Part shown: piece after piece, positions 1-5,755 of the stretch | Layout of the letters: each line of letters begins with the position of its first letter | Numbering within the stretch: the stretch's first letter is position 1 | Notes under the pieces: model-generated | Databases searched by the model: none | What the model was told of the DNA's origin: nothing | The model's input: the letters and a program-made list of their open reading frames with translations, nothing else | Made by a program: the position numbers and the translations under genes | Origin: Deltaproteobacteria bacterium | Lineage (GTDB): Bacteria > Desulfobacterota > Syntrophia > Syntrophales > UBA2210 | Length of the DNA stretch: 5,755 nucleotides | NCBI GenBank assembly: GCA_019314085.1 | Contig: JAFCZZ010000112.1 | Span: forward strand, 1 to 5,755 | Direction: 5' to 3'

Positions 1-61
1 AAAGGGGGAGGACATACACAAGCAGCCGCTCCCCGCTGATTCCCTGTACAGGTTTTTTCAT
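1..61 (-). CDS. Possible start of a further gene in the same direction (partial, unidentified)
   Basis: An ATG at 61 opens a frame that stays open for all 20 codons to the window edge (MKKPVQGISGERLLVYVLPL). It begins 39 bases after the stop of the beta subunit, so it could be the next gene of the cluster. There is no good ribosome-binding site: only a weak GATGG lies upstream. The stretch is too short to recognise. An open frame of this length also occurs by chance, so this is only a candidate. Confidence 0.3.
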   Translation of the reverse strand, partial: MKKPVQGISGERLLVYVLPL

Positions 62-76
62 ACGATAACCATCAGT

Positions 77-93
77 GTCGTGTCAGTCACGAC
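77..93 (-). repeat. Inverted repeat after the beta subunit stop
   Basis: GTCGTG (77-82) and CACGAC (88-93) form a perfect six-pair stem with a five-base loop, starting eight bases after the beta-subunit stop. No U-run follows in the direction of transcription, so it is not a convincing terminator. It may mark the 3' end of the pump message or be an intercistronic hairpin before the possible gene at 61. Confidence 0.4.
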
Positions 94-100
94 CCATACG

Positions 101-1447
101 CTATCCCAGTATTCCCAGAAAGACGCCTCCCGCAATCGCCGCGCCTATGGCCCCGGCAACATTCGGTCCCATGGCGTGCATCAGGAGAAAGTTCTGCTTG
201 TTCTCCTTCTGACCCATCACCTGAACGACCCGCGCGGACATGGGAACGGCGGAGACGCCGGCGGCCCCTATCATCGGATTGATCTTCTCCTTCAAACACA
301 GGTTCATGATCTTCGCAAGGATCACGCCCGCCGCCGCCGCACTGGCAAAGGAGACCACACCCAGGACGAGGATGAGGAGTGTCCGGGGTTGCAGAAAGTT
401 CTGCGCCGGCATCGACGCCCCGATGGCAAGGGTCAGAAAGATGGTGATAATATCAACAAAGGTCGTCTGGGCGGTCTTGTTGAGCCGATCCGTCACGCCG
501 GACTCCTTGAAAAGATTCCCCACCATGAAACACCCCATCAGGGGGGCTGAGGAGGGTACGATCAGAATGACAATAATGGTCGTAATCAGCGGAAAGAGTA
601 TCTTCTCCAGCTTCGACACCTTCCTGAGAGCCGGCTTCATATAGATGCCCCGTTCCTTCTTCGTGGTCAGAAGCCGTATCACCGGGGGGAGGATAATGGG
701 AACCAGCGCCATATACGAGTAGCAAGCGACTGCGGTGGCCCCTATGATATGCGGGGCGAGGAGCGAGGTGACATAGATGGTGGTGGCCCCTTCGGCCCCT
801 CCTATTATCCCGATGGATGCCGCCTCCGTCATGCTGAATCCGAAGATGAGTGACAGGAAGAATGCCAGGTAAACGCCGAATTGTGCGGCGGCCCCCAACA
901 GCAGGGTCTTTGGATTGGCAAGCATGGGACCGAAATCGGTCAGGGCCCCGAGGCACAGAAACATCAGGGGCGGAAGAATCTGCCACATGACCCCGAACTT
1001 GAAGATCCGCGAGAGCAGACCCACGGGGCGTGTGGGCAGCTCCGCCTGATTGGTCTGTTCCATCGTCAGAATAGAGCCCAGGGTCTGCCCCTTTTCGACA
1101 TGCTGGCCCTGGGATATGTTCAGACTGTCGATCCGTCCGAAGACGGGGGCCGTTACCTCACCCGAATCGAGTTTGTATATGATGCCGCCCTTCTTGAAGG
1201 AGTCTCCCTCATGCATCGACACCTCCATCACCGTGCCGGCCTGGGGGGCCTTCAGCATCATTTCGTAGTCCATCATACCCCCGAGGGGCAGGTTGACCAG
1301 TATCATCCCGAACCCTATGGGGACCAGCAAAAGGGGTTCCATCTTCTTGGCAATCGCCAGGTATATGAAACCCAGACCTATAAGAATCATAAGGGCGTTC
1401 CCCCAGTAAAACAGAGGGAATCCTGTCTCAAGTAATCCAAAAAGCAC
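101..1447 (-). CDS. OadB/GcdB-like ion-translocating decarboxylase beta subunit with an inserted biotinyl-like domain
   Basis: This is a polytopic membrane protein that releases CO2 from carboxybiotin and couples this to ion (classically Na+) export. It has 448 residues from GTG. The start is set by a perfect AGGAGG (1455-1460) seven bases upstream; an upstream in-frame TTG at 1468 would put that site inside the gene and is rejected. Family signatures are strong: MEPLLLVPIGFG, GALTDFGPMLANPKTLLLGAAAQFG, YSYMALVP, TTKKER, KINPMIGAAGVSAVPM and LLMHAMGPNVAG. Residues equivalent to Klebsiella OadB Y229, N373, G377 and S382 are kept (Y245, N390, G394, S399). Two things are odd. The motif GGADGPT reads GGAEGAT, so the essential OadB Asp203 is Glu here (E219). 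In addition, residues about 66-128, between membrane segments 2 and 3, form a soluble barrel-sandwich-like domain, which explains the length compared with GcdB/MmdB (about 375). OadB itself also has a longer loop at this place, but of different sequence. Confidence 0.93.
   Translation of the reverse strand: MLFGLLETGFPLFYWGNALMILIGLGFIYLAIAKKMEPLLLVPIGFGMILVNLPLGGMMDYEMMLKAPQAGTVMEVSMHEGDSFKKGGIIYKLDSGEVTAPVFGRIDSLNISQGQHVEKGQTLGSILTMEQTNQAELPTRPVGLLSRIFKFGVMWQILPPLMFLCLGALTDFGPMLANPKTLLLGAAAQFGVYLAFFLSLIFGFSMTEAASIGIIGGAEGATTIYVTSLLAPHIIGATAVACYSYMALVPIILPPVIRLLTTKKERGIYMKPALRKVSKLEKILFPLITTIIVILIVPSSAPLMGCFMVGNLFKESGVTDRLNKTAQTTFVDIITIFLTLAIGASMPAQNFLQPRTLLILVLGVVSFASAAAAGVILAKIMNLCLKEKINPMIGAAGVSAVPMSARVVQVMGQKENKQNFLLMHAMGPNVAGAIGAAIAGGVFLGILG
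1064..1252 (-). other. Inserted biotinyl/lipoyl-like domain without the biotinylation hairpin (domain of the beta subunit)
   Basis: Codons 66-128 of the beta subunit encode two half-motifs typical of biotinyl/lipoyl or HlyD-type barrel-sandwich domains. The first half is APQAGTVMEVSMHEGDSFKKG; the second begins APVFGRIDSLNISQGQHV and ends EKGQTLGSIL. By eye it aligns along its whole length with the separate biotin carrier of this cluster. The carrier's ILEAMKMENPIFAP turn is replaced by a shorter KLDSGEVTAP, so about four residues carrying the modified lysine are lost. It therefore cannot carry biotin in the normal way. It is flanked by membrane helices 2 (PLLLVPIGFGMILVNLP) and 3. Which side of the membrane it faces is not settled by the sequence: the KK after helix 1 would favour an external insert under the positive-inside rule, while docking of the carrier needs a cytoplasmic one. 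Confidence 0.75.
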
Positions 1448-1454
1448 GTCTATT

Positions 1455-1460
1455 CCTCCT
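1455..1460 (-). promoter_or_regulatory. Ribosome-binding site that decides the GTG start of the beta subunit
   Basis: AGGAGG on the minus strand is followed by seven bases (aatagac) and then GTG at 1447. This is the same core and spacing as for the biotin carrier. It rules out the longer frame from TTG at 1468, whose extra seven codons would contain the site itself. Confidence 0.85.
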
Positions 1461-1480
1461 CTACACAACCTTCAGCCAGT

Positions 1481-1615
1481 CTACTTCTTGACACCGGTAA
1501 TCTTTTCAGTAATCACCCTCGTCAACTCTACCGATATACCCAGCAGTACCAGTATACCAAACACCAGGCCGAATCCGCCGATGGCCGTCTTTATCGCCAG
1601 GCCCCAGTCAACCAT
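1481..1615 (-). CDS. Tiny OadG-like membrane subunit of the decarboxylase pump
   Basis: This is a 44-residue protein with one predicted membrane helix. After a short N-terminus (MVDWGLAIKT) comes a hydrophobic stretch with the glycine-rich GGFGLVFGILVLLGISV pattern (about 13-29), then a charged tail ending TGVKK. The pattern and the position directly before the beta-subunit gene fit the OadG/MmdD/GcdD family, single-helix subunits that hold the beta subunit and the soluble subunits together. Characterised members are about 80-110 residues and carry a cytoplasmic tail that binds the carboxyltransferase (in OadG also zinc); that tail is almost entirely missing here. AGGAG (1627-1631) lies 11 bases before the chosen ATG, a slightly long spacing. 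An in-frame ATG seven codons earlier (ending at 1636) would give 51 residues, but has no ribosome-binding site. No clear alternative identity. Confidence 0.75.
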   Translation of the reverse strand: MVDWGLAIKTAIGGFGLVFGILVLLGISVELTRVITEKITGVKK

Positions 1616-1635
1616 GTCAATACACGCTCCTCTCA

Positions 1636-1650
1636 TCCGGACAAGCCGGA
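1636..1650 (-). repeat. Third inverted repeat, just before the gamma gene's ribosome-binding site
   Basis: TCCGG (1636-1640) and CCGGA (1646-1650) pair around five bases (acaag). It ends four bases from the AGGAG (1627-1631) of the gamma gene, close enough to affect ribosome access if it forms, though it does not sequester the site. Confidence 0.4.
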
Positions 1651-1657
1651 ACCAGAC

Positions 1658-1678
1658 CGTTTGAACAGATCACAAACG
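1658..1678 (-). repeat. Second inverted repeat in the carrier to gamma gap
   Basis: CGTTTG (1658-1663) and CAAACG (1673-1678) can pair around nine bases. It begins one base away from the ten-base repeat at 1680-1721. On its own this is a weak hairpin; its interest is that it is the middle of three arrayed in one 114-base gap. Confidence 0.4.
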
Positions 1679-1679
1679 T

Positions 1680-1721
1680 AGAAGGGATAAGAACATTACG
1701 GCACAACCCCCTATCCCTTCT
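1680..1721 (-). repeat. Ten-base perfect inverted repeat right after the biotin carrier gene
   Basis: AGAAGGGATA (1680-1689) and TATCCCTTCT (1712-1721) are perfect inverted arms around 22 bases. The hairpin would begin eight bases after the carrier stop codon. No run of U follows in the leftward transcript (the arm is followed by acgtttgtg), so it is not a standard intrinsic terminator. A 3'-end stabiliser, a processing site or a partial attenuator separating carrier from membrane-subunit expression are all possible. Confidence 0.6.
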
Positions 1722-1729
1722 CTTTTCAG

Positions 1730-1945
1730 CTATTCCAGAACCATCAATATCTGATCGGCCTCCACGGAATCCTTTTCCTTTACCTTGATCTCCTTGACCG
1801 TCCCATCGGACGGGGCAAAGATGGGGTTCTCCATCTTCATTGCCTCAAGGATTATCACCTCGTCATTCTCCTTGACCGCATCACCGACCTTCACCAGAAT
1901 CTCAATAATGTTCCCCGGCATGGGAGCTGATATCTCTACGCTCAT
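1730..1945 (-). CDS. Small biotin carrier protein (biotinyl domain only)
   Basis: This is the swinging biotin carrier of the decarboxylase: it takes the carboxyl group from the carboxyltransferase and delivers it to the membrane subunit, where CO2 is released. The 71 residues are a single biotinyl/lipoyl domain. Pseudo-twofold halves are visible (APMPGNIIEILVKVGDAV and APSDGTVKEIKVKEKDSV). The hairpin EAMKME places the biotinylated lysine at K37 (codon 1835-1837). The Ala/Pro-rich flexible N-terminal linker found in many GcdC and MmdC subunits is absent, so mobility must come from the free protein rather than from a tether. The start is firm: a perfect AGGAGG (1953-1958) sits seven bases before the ATG. 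It lies between the carboxyltransferase and the gamma and beta genes, as expected for the gamma/C subunit of a sodium-pump decarboxylase. A biotin protein ligase would be needed from elsewhere in the genome. Confidence 0.95.
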   Translation of the reverse strand: MSVEISAPMPGNIIEILVKVGDAVKENDEVIILEAMKMENPIFAPSDGTVKEIKVKEKDSVEADQILMVLE

Positions 1946-1952
1946 CTTCGTT

Positions 1953-1958
1953 CCTCCT
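1953..1958 (-). promoter_or_regulatory. Strong ribosome-binding site of the biotin carrier gene
   Basis: AGGAGG on the minus strand lies seven bases before the ATG at 1945. It is an exact match to the anti-Shine-Dalgarno consensus and much stronger than the site of the preceding carboxyltransferase gene (AAGGG, 10 bases away). It fixes the carrier start and suggests high translation, fitting a subunit that may be needed in excess. Confidence 0.85.
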
Positions 1959-1970
1959 GATAATTTTGAT

Positions 1971-2000
1971 TATATACTGCAACAGGGGCACCCCTGACAA
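1971..2000 (-). promoter_or_regulatory. Possible internal sigma70-type promoter before the biotin carrier
   Basis: On the minus strand TTGTCA (2000-1995) and TATATA (1976-1971) are separated by 18 bases; TATAAT (1974-1969) is an overlapping second choice for the -10 box at a spacing of 20. A start near 1963 would leave a short leader ending in the carrier's AGGAGG. The surrounding region is AT-rich compared with the genes. Sequence match only; it would allow carrier, gamma and beta to be made independently of the upstream genes. Confidence 0.35.
1983..1996 (-). repeat. Short GC-rich inverted repeat between the possible -35 and -10 boxes
   Basis: CAGGGG (1983-1988) and CCCCTG (1991-1996) form a perfect inverted repeat around two bases, giving a five- to six-pair hairpin. 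On the transcript no U-tract follows, so it does not look like an intrinsic terminator. It overlaps the end of the putative -35 box and fills the spacer, so it could be an operator or a small intercistronic hairpin in the transcript from upstream. Confidence 0.5.
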
Positions 2001-2068
2001 TATACCCATATATTTCAGCAACCAACCGATGCTGAAGATCACCCGCAACAGTCGGTCGCATCGCGCTT

Positions 2069-3838
2069 CTATTCCTCTTTCACCGGCCTGTCAAGTCCCT
2101 TAACAACCTGGGATTGTATGAGCCTCGGGAGCATCATGTGGTGGCGGGGGCATATCGACCTCGGGTTCTGATAGACGCCGTTGGAAAAGGCCACCAGGTA
2201 CCGGCGCATGTCTTCGAAACGCACAACCTCATCCACCATCCCGGTCTTTGCGCAGTAGATCGGCCGGGACGTATCCTGATAATGCTGAACCATCTCATTC
2301 ATTTTTTCAATCACCGGCTCGAGCGAATGTCCCGCATCCTTCTCCTTGACAAGCCTCCTCGAGTAACTCGCGGCGGCGGCCGTCTCGCCGTGCATCACGT
2401 TGATCTCGGTGCTCGGGGTGCCAATGGTAAAGGCAGTGTTGTTATTGGCGGTGGGGCCTCCCATGACGTAATGAGCCGCCGCCGTCCCCTTCCTGAGGAC
2501 GACCAGCATCATCGGCACACCGGTCTGCTCTACCGAGTAGATCAGCGACTGCCCCAGGCCGAGAAGTTCTGCCTTTTCCGCGGTGTCACCCACATCGATC
2601 CCTGAGGTATCCTGGAACCAGATAATAGGAACCCTGTCACGACCGCACTGCGTCACAAATTCATTCATCTTGATCAGGCCCTGGCGGTAGAGCTTCCCCC
2701 CCACGCCAATATACTCATTCGTATACTCGGGGTAGTTCGGCAGCAGGCCCTGGCGGTTGCCGATGACAGCCATCAGGAACCCGTCTATCATGACGAGGCC
2801 CGTGTAGACCTCCGGACCGTATCCGGGTCTGAATTCGAGATGCTGACTGTTATCAACCAGACGGGCAAGGACGTTGTCGAAATCATACCCCGCCTTCGGA
2901 TTCATACTCACCAGGTACGGCAGCTCCGATGGGGCATATTTGGGCTCCGCCGGGACGGCGAGGCGGAAAAAGCGGGGGTCATACGCGGGGAGACCCGTCA
3001 TGTATTCCTTCAGGGCATCCAGAACCTGTGTCTCCTCATCAAAGACCGCCCTGAAGAACCCGGTCTCATCGTAGTGAATCTTCACACTCCCCGGCGGGAC
3101 GGACTTGAAGTGGCGGGTGGCACCGATCAACTCCTCCGCACTCTCCTCATCGAAATATCCCTTGGGACTCATCCCGCCCACGATACCGCCGCCGCCCACC
3201 GCTATGTTGCAGTTCTTATGCGCCAGCAGTATGGTGGGACTGATCCCCTGGTACCCTCCACCGGCGGGGTTGGTCCCGTAGATGCCCGCCAGGACGGGGA
3301 TGCCAAGCTTCTCCAGTTCAGCGTGGCGGTAGAAGCAGGTCCCCTGACCGCGACGGTTGGCATACATCTTCTCCTGCTCCGGCAGTTTGACGCCGGAACA
3401 GTTCACCAGCCAGACGAGGGGCAGGTTCATGATCTTTGCGATATCGGTGACCCGGAGATTGTTCTCGGGCTGCCCGGCTATCCAGGCGCCGGCGATCCAC
3501 TTATTGTTGAAGCCGATCAGCATGCACCACCGGCCGTTGATCCGGGCAAGACCGTCCACAACCCCCGTGCTTCCAGATTCCTCATGATCAGGGTCAAAGA
3601 TAGTGTGGAGGGGACAGAACGTCCCTGGGTCAGCCAGATACTCGATCCGTTCCCACACAGTCATACTGCCGCGCTGATGGACCTTCTCGACGGGAATTCC
3701 GACCCCCTTGATTCTCTCAACCTCCGCGTCGATCCCTGCCATGACCTCCTGCGCCAGGGTTACGTTTTTCTCCATCCTCTTGATCTGTGATTCCTTCAGA
3801 GGCCTTCCAAAATCATCCATCTTTAGATATGGTATCAT
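2069..3838 (-). CDS. Biotin-dependent carboxyltransferase, alpha subunit of a GcdA-type acyl-CoA decarboxylase
   Basis: This subunit transfers the free carboxyl group of a CoA ester to carrier-bound biotin; it is cytosolic and docks on the membrane pump. It has 589 residues with two crotonase-like halves (about 50-300 and 315-575). Oxyanion-hole and CoA-site glycine motifs are visible in each half: YGTNPAGGGY (187-196) and VGGGGIVGGMSPKG (214-227) in the first, DTSGIDVG (410-417) and RKGTAAAHYVMGGP (449-462) in the second. Length and motifs (NCSGVK, NRRGQGT, GGKLYRQGLIKMNEFVT, SICPRHHMMLPR) match the alpha subunit of glutaconyl-CoA decarboxylase (GcdA, about 587 residues) better than the roughly 510-residue PccB/MmdA type. 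Next to a mutase and MeaB, methylmalonyl-CoA or a substituted malonyl-CoA is a likely substrate, but glutaconyl-CoA cannot be excluded. The chosen ATG has AAGGG 10 bases upstream; Met7 is a less supported alternative start. A gap of 55 bases separates it from the GTPase gene. Confidence 0.9.
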   Translation of the reverse strand: MIPYLKMDDFGRPLKESQIKRMEKNVTLAQEVMAGIDAEVERIKGVGIPVEKVHQRGSMTVWERIEYLADPGTFCPLHTIFDPDHEESGSTGVVDGLARINGRWCMLIGFNNKWIAGAWIAGQPENNLRVTDIAKIMNLPLVWLVNCSGVKLPEQEKMYANRRGQGTCFYRHAELEKLGIPVLAGIYGTNPAGGGYQGISPTILLAHKNCNIAVGGGGIVGGMSPKGYFDEESAEELIGATRHFKSVPPGSVKIHYDETGFFRAVFDEETQVLDALKEYMTGLPAYDPRFFRLAVPAEPKYAPSELPYLVSMNPKAGYDFDNVLARLVDNSQHLEFRPGYGPEVYTGLVMIDGFLMAVIGNRQGLLPNYPEYTNEYIGVGGKLYRQGLIKMNEFVTQCGRDRVPIIWFQDTSGIDVGDTAEKAELLGLGQSLIYSVEQTGVPMMLVVLRKGTAAAHYVMGGPTANNNTAFTIGTPSTEINVMHGETAAAASYSRRLVKEKDAGHSLEPVIEKMNEMVQHYQDTSRPIYCAKTGMVDEVVRFEDMRRYLVAFSNGVYQNPRSICPRHHMMLPRLIQSQVVKGLDRPVKEE

Positions 3839-3893
3839 GATGTAATTTCCCTTCTGTAATTTGTATAATAGAACCTAATGTGCCGAGAGACAC

Positions 3894-4877
3894 TCAGGTA
3901 TCGTCCAGGAAAAAGAGCAGTTTGTCCGCAGCGGTTGTCGGCGCGGTCGTCCCCTCTTCCACCTCTCTTTCAATCTTCGGTATCATCGCCTTGACGTAGG
4001 GATTCTTGTAAAACCACTCGGCAAGCCCCTCTTTCACCAGGAACCACATCCAGTCAAGAGCCTGTTTCTCCCGTTTAATCTCCAGTTCTCCGGTCGACGT
4101 CAGCTTTTCCCTGTGTTCCAGGACGGTATCCCATATCTCCTGTACGCCGGTCAACTCCAGAGAACTGCAGGTAAGAACGGGGGGAGACCAGTTGGGGGAC
4201 AACGGGGCTGAAAAATGGAGGGCCGTCTCGAACTGTCTGCGTGCAAAGGCCGCCCTCTGCATATTGTCGCCATCCGCCTTGTTGATGGCGATCGCATCGA
4301 TCAGCTCCAGGATCCCCTTCTTTATTCCCTGAAGCTCGTCTCCCGCTCCGGATATCATCAGCATCAGGAAAAAATCAACCATGGAGGCTACCGCAACCTC
4401 GGATTGACCGGAGCCCAGGGTTTCAACGATCACCACATCAAAGCCGGCGGCCTCACAGACAAGCACCGTTTCCCTGGTCTTACTCGCAACGCCCCCGAGG
4501 GTACCCCCTGAGGGGGAGGGCCGGATAAAGGCATTCTCATGGGCGGAGAGTTTTTCCATGCGGGTCTTATCCGCCAGGACGCTCCCCCCGCTCCTCACAC
4601 TGCTCGGATCAACGGCGAGAACGGCCACACTGTACCCTTTTTTCACCAGGACCATACCAAGGGCCTCGATGAAGGTGCTCTTCCCCGCACCCGGCACTCC
4701 TGTTACCCCGAGGCGTATTGCCTTCCCCGTGTGAGGGAGCAGTTGATCGATGACAAGCCGCGCCGTCTTCTTATGATCCGGGAGTGAAGATTCGATCAGG
4801 GTAATGGTCTTGGAGATCATACGCCTGTCGTGTCTGAGCACTCCGTCTATATATGGCTGGGTCTCAGCTGCTGTCAT
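3894..4877 (-). CDS. meaB: MeaB/ArgK-type GTPase, chaperone of the B12-dependent mutase
   Basis: This is a P-loop GTPase of the G3E family (MeaB, human MMAA). Known members load and protect adenosylcobalamin in methylmalonyl-CoA mutase and gate cofactor exchange by GTP hydrolysis. The 327 residues match the usual length. Walker A is GVPGAGKST (60-68); the Mg-site region is VDPSS (89-93); the G3 motif is ETLGSGQSE (152-160); the guanine-specificity motif is NKAD (199-202). The C-terminal part (about 260-327) carries the helical dimerisation arm of the family, including LDWMW and a charged helix near KIEREVEE. Its ATG overlaps the mutase stop as ATGA (4874-4877), so translation is probably coupled and the partner is almost certainly the adjacent mutase. 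Two positions differ from the form I remember as usual: GSGQ where GVGQ is common, and SPSGGTLGG where SPSSGTLGG is common. Both lie in nucleotide-responsive segments, but the core motifs are intact, so I expect an active GTPase. Confidence 0.94.
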
Positions 4878-5755
4878 GCACCCTGCTCCAGGATGTTGAG
4901 GACCCTGTTCGCGGATTCCAGGATGGGTGTCCCCGGACCGAATATCGCCGCCACACCGGCATCATAGAGAAAATCATAATCGCTATGGGGGATCACACCG
5001 CCGACGATGACCTTGATATCTCCTCCCCCCTCTTTTTCGAGATTCTCCAGGAGCTGGGGGACAAGGGCCTTGTGACCGGCGGCCAGGCTCGAGACGCCGA
5101 CGGCGTGGACATCGTTCTCCACCGCCATCTTGGCCGCCTCCCGGGGAGTCTGGAACATGGGACCGATATCCACATCAAATCCAAGATCGGCATACGCCGT
5201 GGCGATCACCTTGCTCCCGCGGTCGTGGCCATCCTGTCCCATCTTGACAACCAGCATCCGCGGTCGTCTCCCTTTCCGTTCCATGAAGTCACCCGCCCGC
5301 TTCTTGGCTGAGGCAAATATTTCGCTGTCCGCGTACTCTGAGGCATAGGCCCCGGATATGCACTGAGTGGTCGCGATATACCGTCCGAAGACCTGCTCCA
5401 TCGCCCACGAGATCTCTCCGACCGTCGCGCGAGCTCGTGCGGCGGATATTGCCAGTTTCAGCAGGTTCCCCTCCCCCGATTCGGCGCAGTTTGTCAGGGC
5501 CTCCAGGGCCTTCTGTACGGCGGCAGGGTCCCGGCGCTTCTTAAGATCCTGCAGCCGGGCGATCTGCTCATCCCGGACGGCCTCGGACACCTCACGGATA
5601 TTGTCGAGAGGTTCCTCCTCTATCTGATACTTGTTGACACCCACGATCACGTCCAGACCCTGGTCTATTCGGGCCTGCTTCCGGGCCGCCGATTCCTCTA
5701 TGCGCATCTTCGGCATCCCGGTCTCGATGGCCCTGGCCATACCGCCCAGCTCCTC
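4874..5755 (-). CDS. Methylmalonyl-CoA mutase-like protein, C-terminal part with B12-binding domain (5' end outside window)
   Basis: This is an adenosylcobalamin-dependent acyl-CoA mutase that rearranges the carbon skeleton, classically (R)-methylmalonyl-CoA to or from succinyl-CoA, in the cytoplasm. The reading frame runs off the right edge, so 293 C-terminal residues are visible and the start is missing; the Met at 5740 is internal (it is preceded in frame by EELGG). Visible residues 1 to about 130 match the end of the catalytic barrel domain and linker ([28 protein letters not shown]). From about residue 160 the cobalamin-binding domain follows: DGHDRG (D175, H177, G180) is the DxHxxG motif whose His is the lower cobalt ligand; SSLAAGH at about 222-228 and VIVGGVIP at about 249-256 are the other B12-domain signatures. 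Barrel and B12 domain lie on one chain, as in MutB-type mutases and unlike split isobutyryl-CoA mutases. The family assignment is firm. The exact substrate is not decided, because the substrate-binding half is absent. The stop overlaps the next gene's start. Confidence 0.95.

Follow-up and report, generated by a model that had tools for sequence, protein, structure and literature searches.

In OadB, the beta subunit of the oxaloacetate decarboxylase (OAD) of Salmonella typhimurium (6iww), the chain runs through T1, T2, domain E, T3′ and T3; domain E consists of four helices, one of which, αE4, touches the neighbours at the trimer interface in a small protomer contact (PMC7274780). The conserved residues Glu40, between T1 and T2, and Thr148/Asp149, after T3, mark the cytoplasmic face, and the walls of the central cavity, which is open to the periplasm, are formed by T3′, T3 and T8. 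The cytoplasmic cavity is the presumed site of carboxybiotin decarboxylation, although the authors allow for another place (PMC7274780). Short beta subunits, of the GcdB/MmdB type, belong to the same family and share the same helices. Here we analyse a beta subunit encoded in a 5,755-nucleotide stretch of DNA (the window: contig JAFCZZ010000112.1, positions 1 to 5,755, from a Deltaproteobacteria bacterium of the Syntrophales), in which an earlier note, made from the sequence, had seen a degenerate biotinyl-like domain between membrane helices 2 and 3.

The inserted domain and its missing biotin site

Judged by profile and by fold (488.6 bits to PF03977), the window protein is unambiguously a member of OAD_beta. 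The features that bear on its insert are the following.

1022–1276, minus strand: whole inserted stretch between T2 and T3′, residues 58–142 (alignments; loop lengths)
1064–1267, minus strand: predicted barrel-sandwich domain proper, residues 61–128 (DSSP on two AlphaFold2 models; fold searches)
1157–1168, minus strand: hairpin turn Asp-Ser-Gly-Glu, residues 94–97, at the AMKM site of carriers (alignment with 1dcz/1o78)
1295–1336, minus strand: helix T2, residues 38–51 (model; alignment with 6iva)
941–1018, minus strand: helices T3′/T3, residues 144–169 (model; alignment with 6iva)

The segment first noted, 1064–1252 on the minus strand, corresponds to beta residues 66–128; the motifs quoted for it are present in frame, and alignment and model both place it between helices 2 and 3. 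Its limits, however, were drawn too narrowly, as the fold takes in residues from about 61 (base 1267) onward, and the insert continues through residue 142.

Searched against Pfam, the whole beta subunit matched Biotin_lipoyl_2 (expectation value, E, 1.3e-10) and Biotin_lipoyl (E 8.8e-7), both above the curated cut-offs; the excised insert did so at 1.3e-12 and 8.7e-9, respectively, and Biotin_lipoyl was matched by all 29 aligned inserts at E ≤ 0.01. At the level of sequence, the resemblance to carriers is thus far above chance. AlphaFold2 predicted residues 61–128 of the whole protein as all-beta (six strands of at least three residues and two shorter ones; predicted local distance difference test, pLDDT, 85–91 for the block), with no helix in residues 52–143, and the domain modelled alone was again all-beta (pLDDT 87.7; predicted template modelling score 0.69). 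The top Foldseek match of the domain was the biotin carrier 5gua (TM score 0.90 by target length, root-mean-square deviation 0.8 Å). With this carrier of the methylmalonyl-CoA decarboxylase of Pyrococcus horikoshi (5gua/2d5d) it shares the barrel sandwich over 67 residues (0.8 Å, 27% identity). The carrier, however, is a free protein with a biotin lysine, whereas the window domain is embedded in a membrane protein, lacks that lysine and has a shorter hairpin. Profile search and the structure predicted for the segment alone therefore agree with Foldseek in bearing out the degenerate biotinyl-like domain of the earlier note, and the segment is, by these models, a barrel-sandwich domain without a biotin site in the T2–T3′ loop of a pump beta subunit.

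A profile search of solved sequences placed E2 lipoyl and biotin domains on top with MacA-like adaptors close behind, and structure scores tie between a carrier and an adaptor lipoyl domain as the source of the insert. The lipoyl domains of membrane fusion proteins (EmrA 4tko, HlyD 5c21, MacA 9qgy) are, like the insert, unmodified barrel sandwiches. Their halves, however, are parted by a long helical hairpin and other adaptor domains follow, whereas the insert is one compact domain, and neither a coiled-coil hairpin nor another adaptor domain is present in the beta model. Peptidase M23 profiles also matched 26 of the 29 inserts. The hallmark of that family is a zinc-binding His/Asp and an HxH motif; the window insert, the one read for these residues, has two His and no HxH, and does not fit this family.

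In the window insert the AMKM hairpin is replaced by the tight turn Leu-Asp-Ser-Gly-Glu. Relative to 1dcz, the insert has a four-residue gap exactly at MKM, and the biotin lysine falls inside it. We surveyed 7,998 scored homologues, of which the best 120 (at least 77% identity, two being the window's own frames) were inspected here and below. In none of the 112 readable sequences do the six residues around the turn include a Lys; the turn itself is nearly always Leu-Asp-Ser/Thr-Gly. Lysines are frequent beside the turn, just before the Leu in many proteins and two residues before a conserved Pro in at least 26; the lysine of carriers stands eight residues ahead of this Pro, in the part that the insert has lost. 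A looser motif scan matched 31 of the 120 loops, and the matches that could be placed, among the 20 listed, fall within the first strand or downstream of the turn. The absence of the AMKM hairpin, as originally read, is thus upheld by both the 1dcz alignment and the turns of the relatives.

Constancy, descent and spread of the insert

The T2–T3 loop is 112 residues long in 119 of the best 120 homologues and 113 in one. In the loci that we fetched, loop length was measured in 108 of 123 distinct beta frames, with 111–116 residues in 28 (exactly 112 in 26) and 31–64 in 80; the other 15 escaped the loop-length pattern, among them L103 and L104, which by eye carry a diverged insert. The near-constant length among insert betas rules out a random loop of variable length, and together with the barrel-sandwich fold it shows a conserved segment of fixed size. 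The earlier statement that short betas lack the domain agrees with the 80 short loops; its two named examples, GcdB and MmdB, are outside the alignment.

In 351 pairwise comparisons of 27 insert betas with the same loop length, identity averaged 0.46 for the insert and 0.84 for its flanks; where silent change was unsaturated (30 pairs), the median ratio of nonsynonymous to synonymous change (dN/dS) was 0.20 for the insert against 0.047 for the flanks. The domain is, therefore, kept under purifying selection while its surface changes freely. Residues at its junctions are conserved in the alignment: Met-Asp at the start, and Thr, Gln-Thr, Gln and Pro at the end.

In a FastTree phylogeny of 124 betas, built on 372 well-filled columns with the insert columns excluded, the window protein groups with 27 others in a single clade (support 1.0) whose members all have the insert, indicating a single descent of the insert in this main clade. 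Strongly diverged inserts stand at the same place in three loci from the class of G005 (L102:1495–2865, L103:1468–2880 and L104:1492–2898). These betas fall in a weakly resolved mixed group, and parsimony requires three changes. Biotin_lipoyl matched L102 at E 1.1e-6 and L104 at E 0.006, below the cut-off, and did not match L103; no MKM motif was seen by eye in the three. These inserts may have been gained separately or be copies that have decayed.

Relatives of the window protein come from metagenome-assembled Syntrophales, other 'Deltaproteobacteria' and Dehalococcoidia/Chloroflexi; L015 and L016, two of the 16 loci in the first relative set, are without the insert. Matches running through the insert were found in 22 of 155 genomes from the order of G001 and in 4 of 294 from the class of G005. 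Among genomes drawn from the phyla, there were at least 2 in 247 for that of G001 (136 with some beta) and 1 in 251 for that of G005 (45 with some beta; centres included in all four counts). The insert is thus uncommon and patchy in its distribution.

Membrane side and role of the insert

Glu37, which precedes T2, and Thr170-Asp171, after T3, are the equivalents of StOadB Glu40 and Thr148/Asp149 in the alignment with 6iva, and would likewise mark the cytoplasmic face (PMC7274780). Since both sites are cytoplasmic and the chain crosses the membrane twice between them, the T2–T3′ loop should be periplasmic. In its elements OadB matches CitS, except for an additional first helix of CitS (PMC7274780), the N-terminus of which points toward the cytoplasm (PMC5451387); with that helix absent from OadB, T1 would run from outside to inside and T2 from inside to outside. 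The charges agree: in 18 aligned rows without the insert, the T2–T3′ loop averages 0.3 Lys+Arg and 1.7 Asp+Glu, and Lys+Arg average 1.8 in loop 1–2 and 5.1 in loop 5–6. Taken together, published topology and charge pattern make it very probable that the insert loop is periplasmic, opposite the carboxybiotin/Na+ cavity. An extracytoplasmic module, which the earlier note had kept as its fallback, is by the same evidence the better reading.

OadB carries its own insertion at this very place, between T2 and T3′ (6iww), and its four helices are indeed unrelated, as the earlier note had it, to the all-beta barrel sandwich of the window model (PMC7274780). Because the insert occupies the site of domain E, whose αE4 contacts neighbouring protomers, we favour, at somewhat better than even confidence, an extracytoplasmic cap or clamp of the beta3 trimer that is not involved in biotin delivery. 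Each protomer would carry one barrel sandwich on two short linkers, and the three domains would stand next to the central cavity on the periplasmic side, the one that T3′, T3 and T8 line. They would cap or clamp the trimer from outside and steady the scaffold domains, in parallel to the small stabilising role of domain E in OadB, and would take no part in the delivery of biotin. A more specific arrangement, in which the three domains close into a ring above the central cavity on the periplasmic side and govern how the pump opens or how stable it is, is a tentative proposal that we consider rather unlikely; the likeness proposed for it is to membrane fusion proteins, where lipoyl domains pack side by side.

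Several points weigh against the cap. The rate of evolution in the insert is about four times that in its flanks, as a decoration under loose constraint could also show, and over the 351 pairs compared the surface of the insert is highly variable. Many homologous pumps lack the domain, which makes it dispensable for pumping as such, and the contacts among the three insert domains are ones that we infer. As to the side, the T3′/T3 segment after the insert averages 1.4 Lys+Arg in insert rows, a small counter-signal. For Klebsiella OadB, an earlier study of topology (Jockel 1999) reportedly placed the N-terminus in the cytoplasm. Finally, the published side assignment of OadB itself rests on the positive-inside rule (PMC7274780), so that our charge count, leaning on the same rule, is not wholly independent of it.

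The strongest competitor, still an unlikely one in our estimate, is that the T2–T3′ loop is an insertion hot spot open to any small independent domain and the barrel sandwich a tolerated decoration, without a specific role, whose fold is kept by selection against misfolding. Such a decoration would fit the four helices found at the same spot in OadB and the 31–64-residue loops elsewhere, the repeated gains that L102–L104 may represent, and the raised dN/dS of the insert. Lineage-specific insertions of small domains, including some of the hammerhead/barrel-sandwich type, are described in RNA polymerase (PMC11515920). It does not, however, sit well with the constant loop length, the conserved junction residues and the lack of any loss within the core clade (28 sampled).

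The cap also competes with an extracytoplasmic module that binds an envelope partner or ligand, as the lipoyl domains of membrane fusion proteins do, which we hold to be improbable. In 11 insert loci (4.8–15 kb; open reading frames of at least 90 residues) we found no recurrent extra neighbour gene that could encode a dedicated partner; besides beta, only the carboxyltransferase occurs in more than 3 of the 11, being present in 5. The coiled-coil hairpin and other adaptor domains are, as said, absent from the model.

The original proposal was a cytoplasmic pseudo-carrier, in which a carrier mimic docks, plugs or gates at the site of carboxybiotin and replaces both the short tail of gamma and the missing linker of the carrier. 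It draws on the shared fold and on the linker-less carrier and short gamma of the operon, which are indeed short beside the parts of Clostridium symbiosum Gcd, where the carrier linkers have 48/39 residues and GcdD reaches residue 95 (PMC7145394). The insert loop, however, is predicted on the side opposite Glu40 and Thr148/Asp149, and with decarboxylation in the cytoplasmic cavity, direct docking or gating would be out of reach for a domain in the periplasm. Fast surface evolution is likewise unexpected for a mimic of the conserved carrier surface.

The compensation idea fared no better when co-occurrence was checked. The tail of gamma after its helix has 9–23 residues in all 14 insert loci and 7–22 in the 15 of 22 no-insert loci with a gamma. 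The gamma queries were short, favouring short gammas, and weak matches (E up to 1) were accepted; 7 of the 22 gave no gamma, that of L099 (a 181-residue frame) is doubtful, and 20 of the 22 were hand-picked, not random. Carriers with 36–44 residues before the biotin lysine occur in 7 of the 9 insert loci that have a carrier at all (the exceptions are L006, with 69, and L007, with 64, both of uncertain start codon) and in 9 of 10 such no-insert loci: L015, L082, L083, L085, L088, L089, L092, L096 and L101, the last with its carrier 3.4 kb off on the other strand. The tenth, L098, has only a long one. A short gamma and a linker-less carrier stand close by without the insert in L015, L085, L088 and L092. 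As the traits are found also in loci without the insert, we rejected compensation, and the pseudo-carrier as a whole appears very improbable. Separately, in the fetched flanks of L003, L004, L005, L008 and L010, whose insert betas have a gamma, no carrier was detected; it may lie elsewhere in the genome or beyond the contig end.

A second carrier still working with biotin or lipoate, for which the overall carrier fold and the lysines just before and after the turn might speak, we dismiss as next to impossible, given the gap at the 1dcz biotin lysine, the Lys-free turns and the lack, by eye, of an MKM motif in L102–L104.

Gene order and wider meaning

The other genes of the window, together with the beta gene itself, are as follows.

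101–1447, minus strand: beta subunit (carboxybiotin decarboxylase/Na+ translocator), 448 residues, GTG start
1481–1636, minus strand: gamma/delta-type small subunit, 51 residues, one transmembrane helix, tail of about 13–15 residues (PF04277, 15.7 bits)
1730–1945, minus strand: genuine biotin carrier, 71 residues, AMKM, linker-less (PF00364, 80 bits)
2069–3838, minus strand: carboxyltransferase of the glutaconyl-CoA decarboxylase alpha (GcdA) type, 589 residues (3gf3, 707 bits)
3894–4877, minus strand: MeaB GTPase (NF006958, 476 bits)
4874–5755, minus strand: methylmalonyl-CoA mutase, C-terminal part, cut by the window end (NF006944, 424 bits, profile 425–716; 2xij, 360 bits)

Read along the minus strand, the order is methylmalonyl-CoA mutase end, MeaB, carboxyltransferase, carrier, small subunit and beta. 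By sequence reading, beta starts at GTG 1447, seven bases after AGGAGG, and the database entry for the same protein (P0001) also has 448 residues. With the genes for carrier, gamma and carboxyltransferase adjoining, it is a predicted subunit of a decarboxylase Na+ pump. A relative of gamma lies just upstream of beta in all 14 insert loci. The window's small subunit scores 15.7 bits to OAD_gamma, below the cut-off of 27, and gammas as short as this could therefore escape standard annotation.

The GcdA-type alpha shares one operon with methylmalonyl-CoA mutase and MeaB (2069–5755). In L002, although its beta is 92% identical to that of the window, alpha is of the PccB/MmdA type; the same pump base thus appears, from the sequences, to be combined with different carboxyltransferases, and a tie of the insert to one alpha type is ruled out. 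Among the other loci, L091 has a tandem pair of different beta genes (2668–3882 and 3995–5170), and neighbouring beta matches also occur in G118:C96 and G147:C97. Two adjacent carriers, of 154 and 76 residues, lie in L096:5132–5849; the shorter is linker-less, and the longer looks like a membrane helix, a linker and a biotinyl domain.

In titles and abstract openings of the best matches in open-licence literature we found no description of a biotinyl-like domain in a beta subunit, which is weak evidence that none exists. Automatic domain calls assign both PF00364 and PF03977 to many of the best 120 homologues; as they link the segment to biotin- and lipoyl-binding families despite the missing attachment lysine, annotators should be cautious. 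Pairs that differ naturally in the domain (the window type versus L015 or L053) offer a way into questions of trimer stability and Na+ release. This domain of a sodium pump occurs in some uncultured anaerobic bacteria. Should the cap reading be right, the T2–T3′ loop would be a site where lineages install different extracytoplasmic modules, helices in OadB and a barrel sandwich here; and if the ring were true, the carrier fold, used inside by the biotin subunit, would be reused without cofactor on the outside of the same enzyme.
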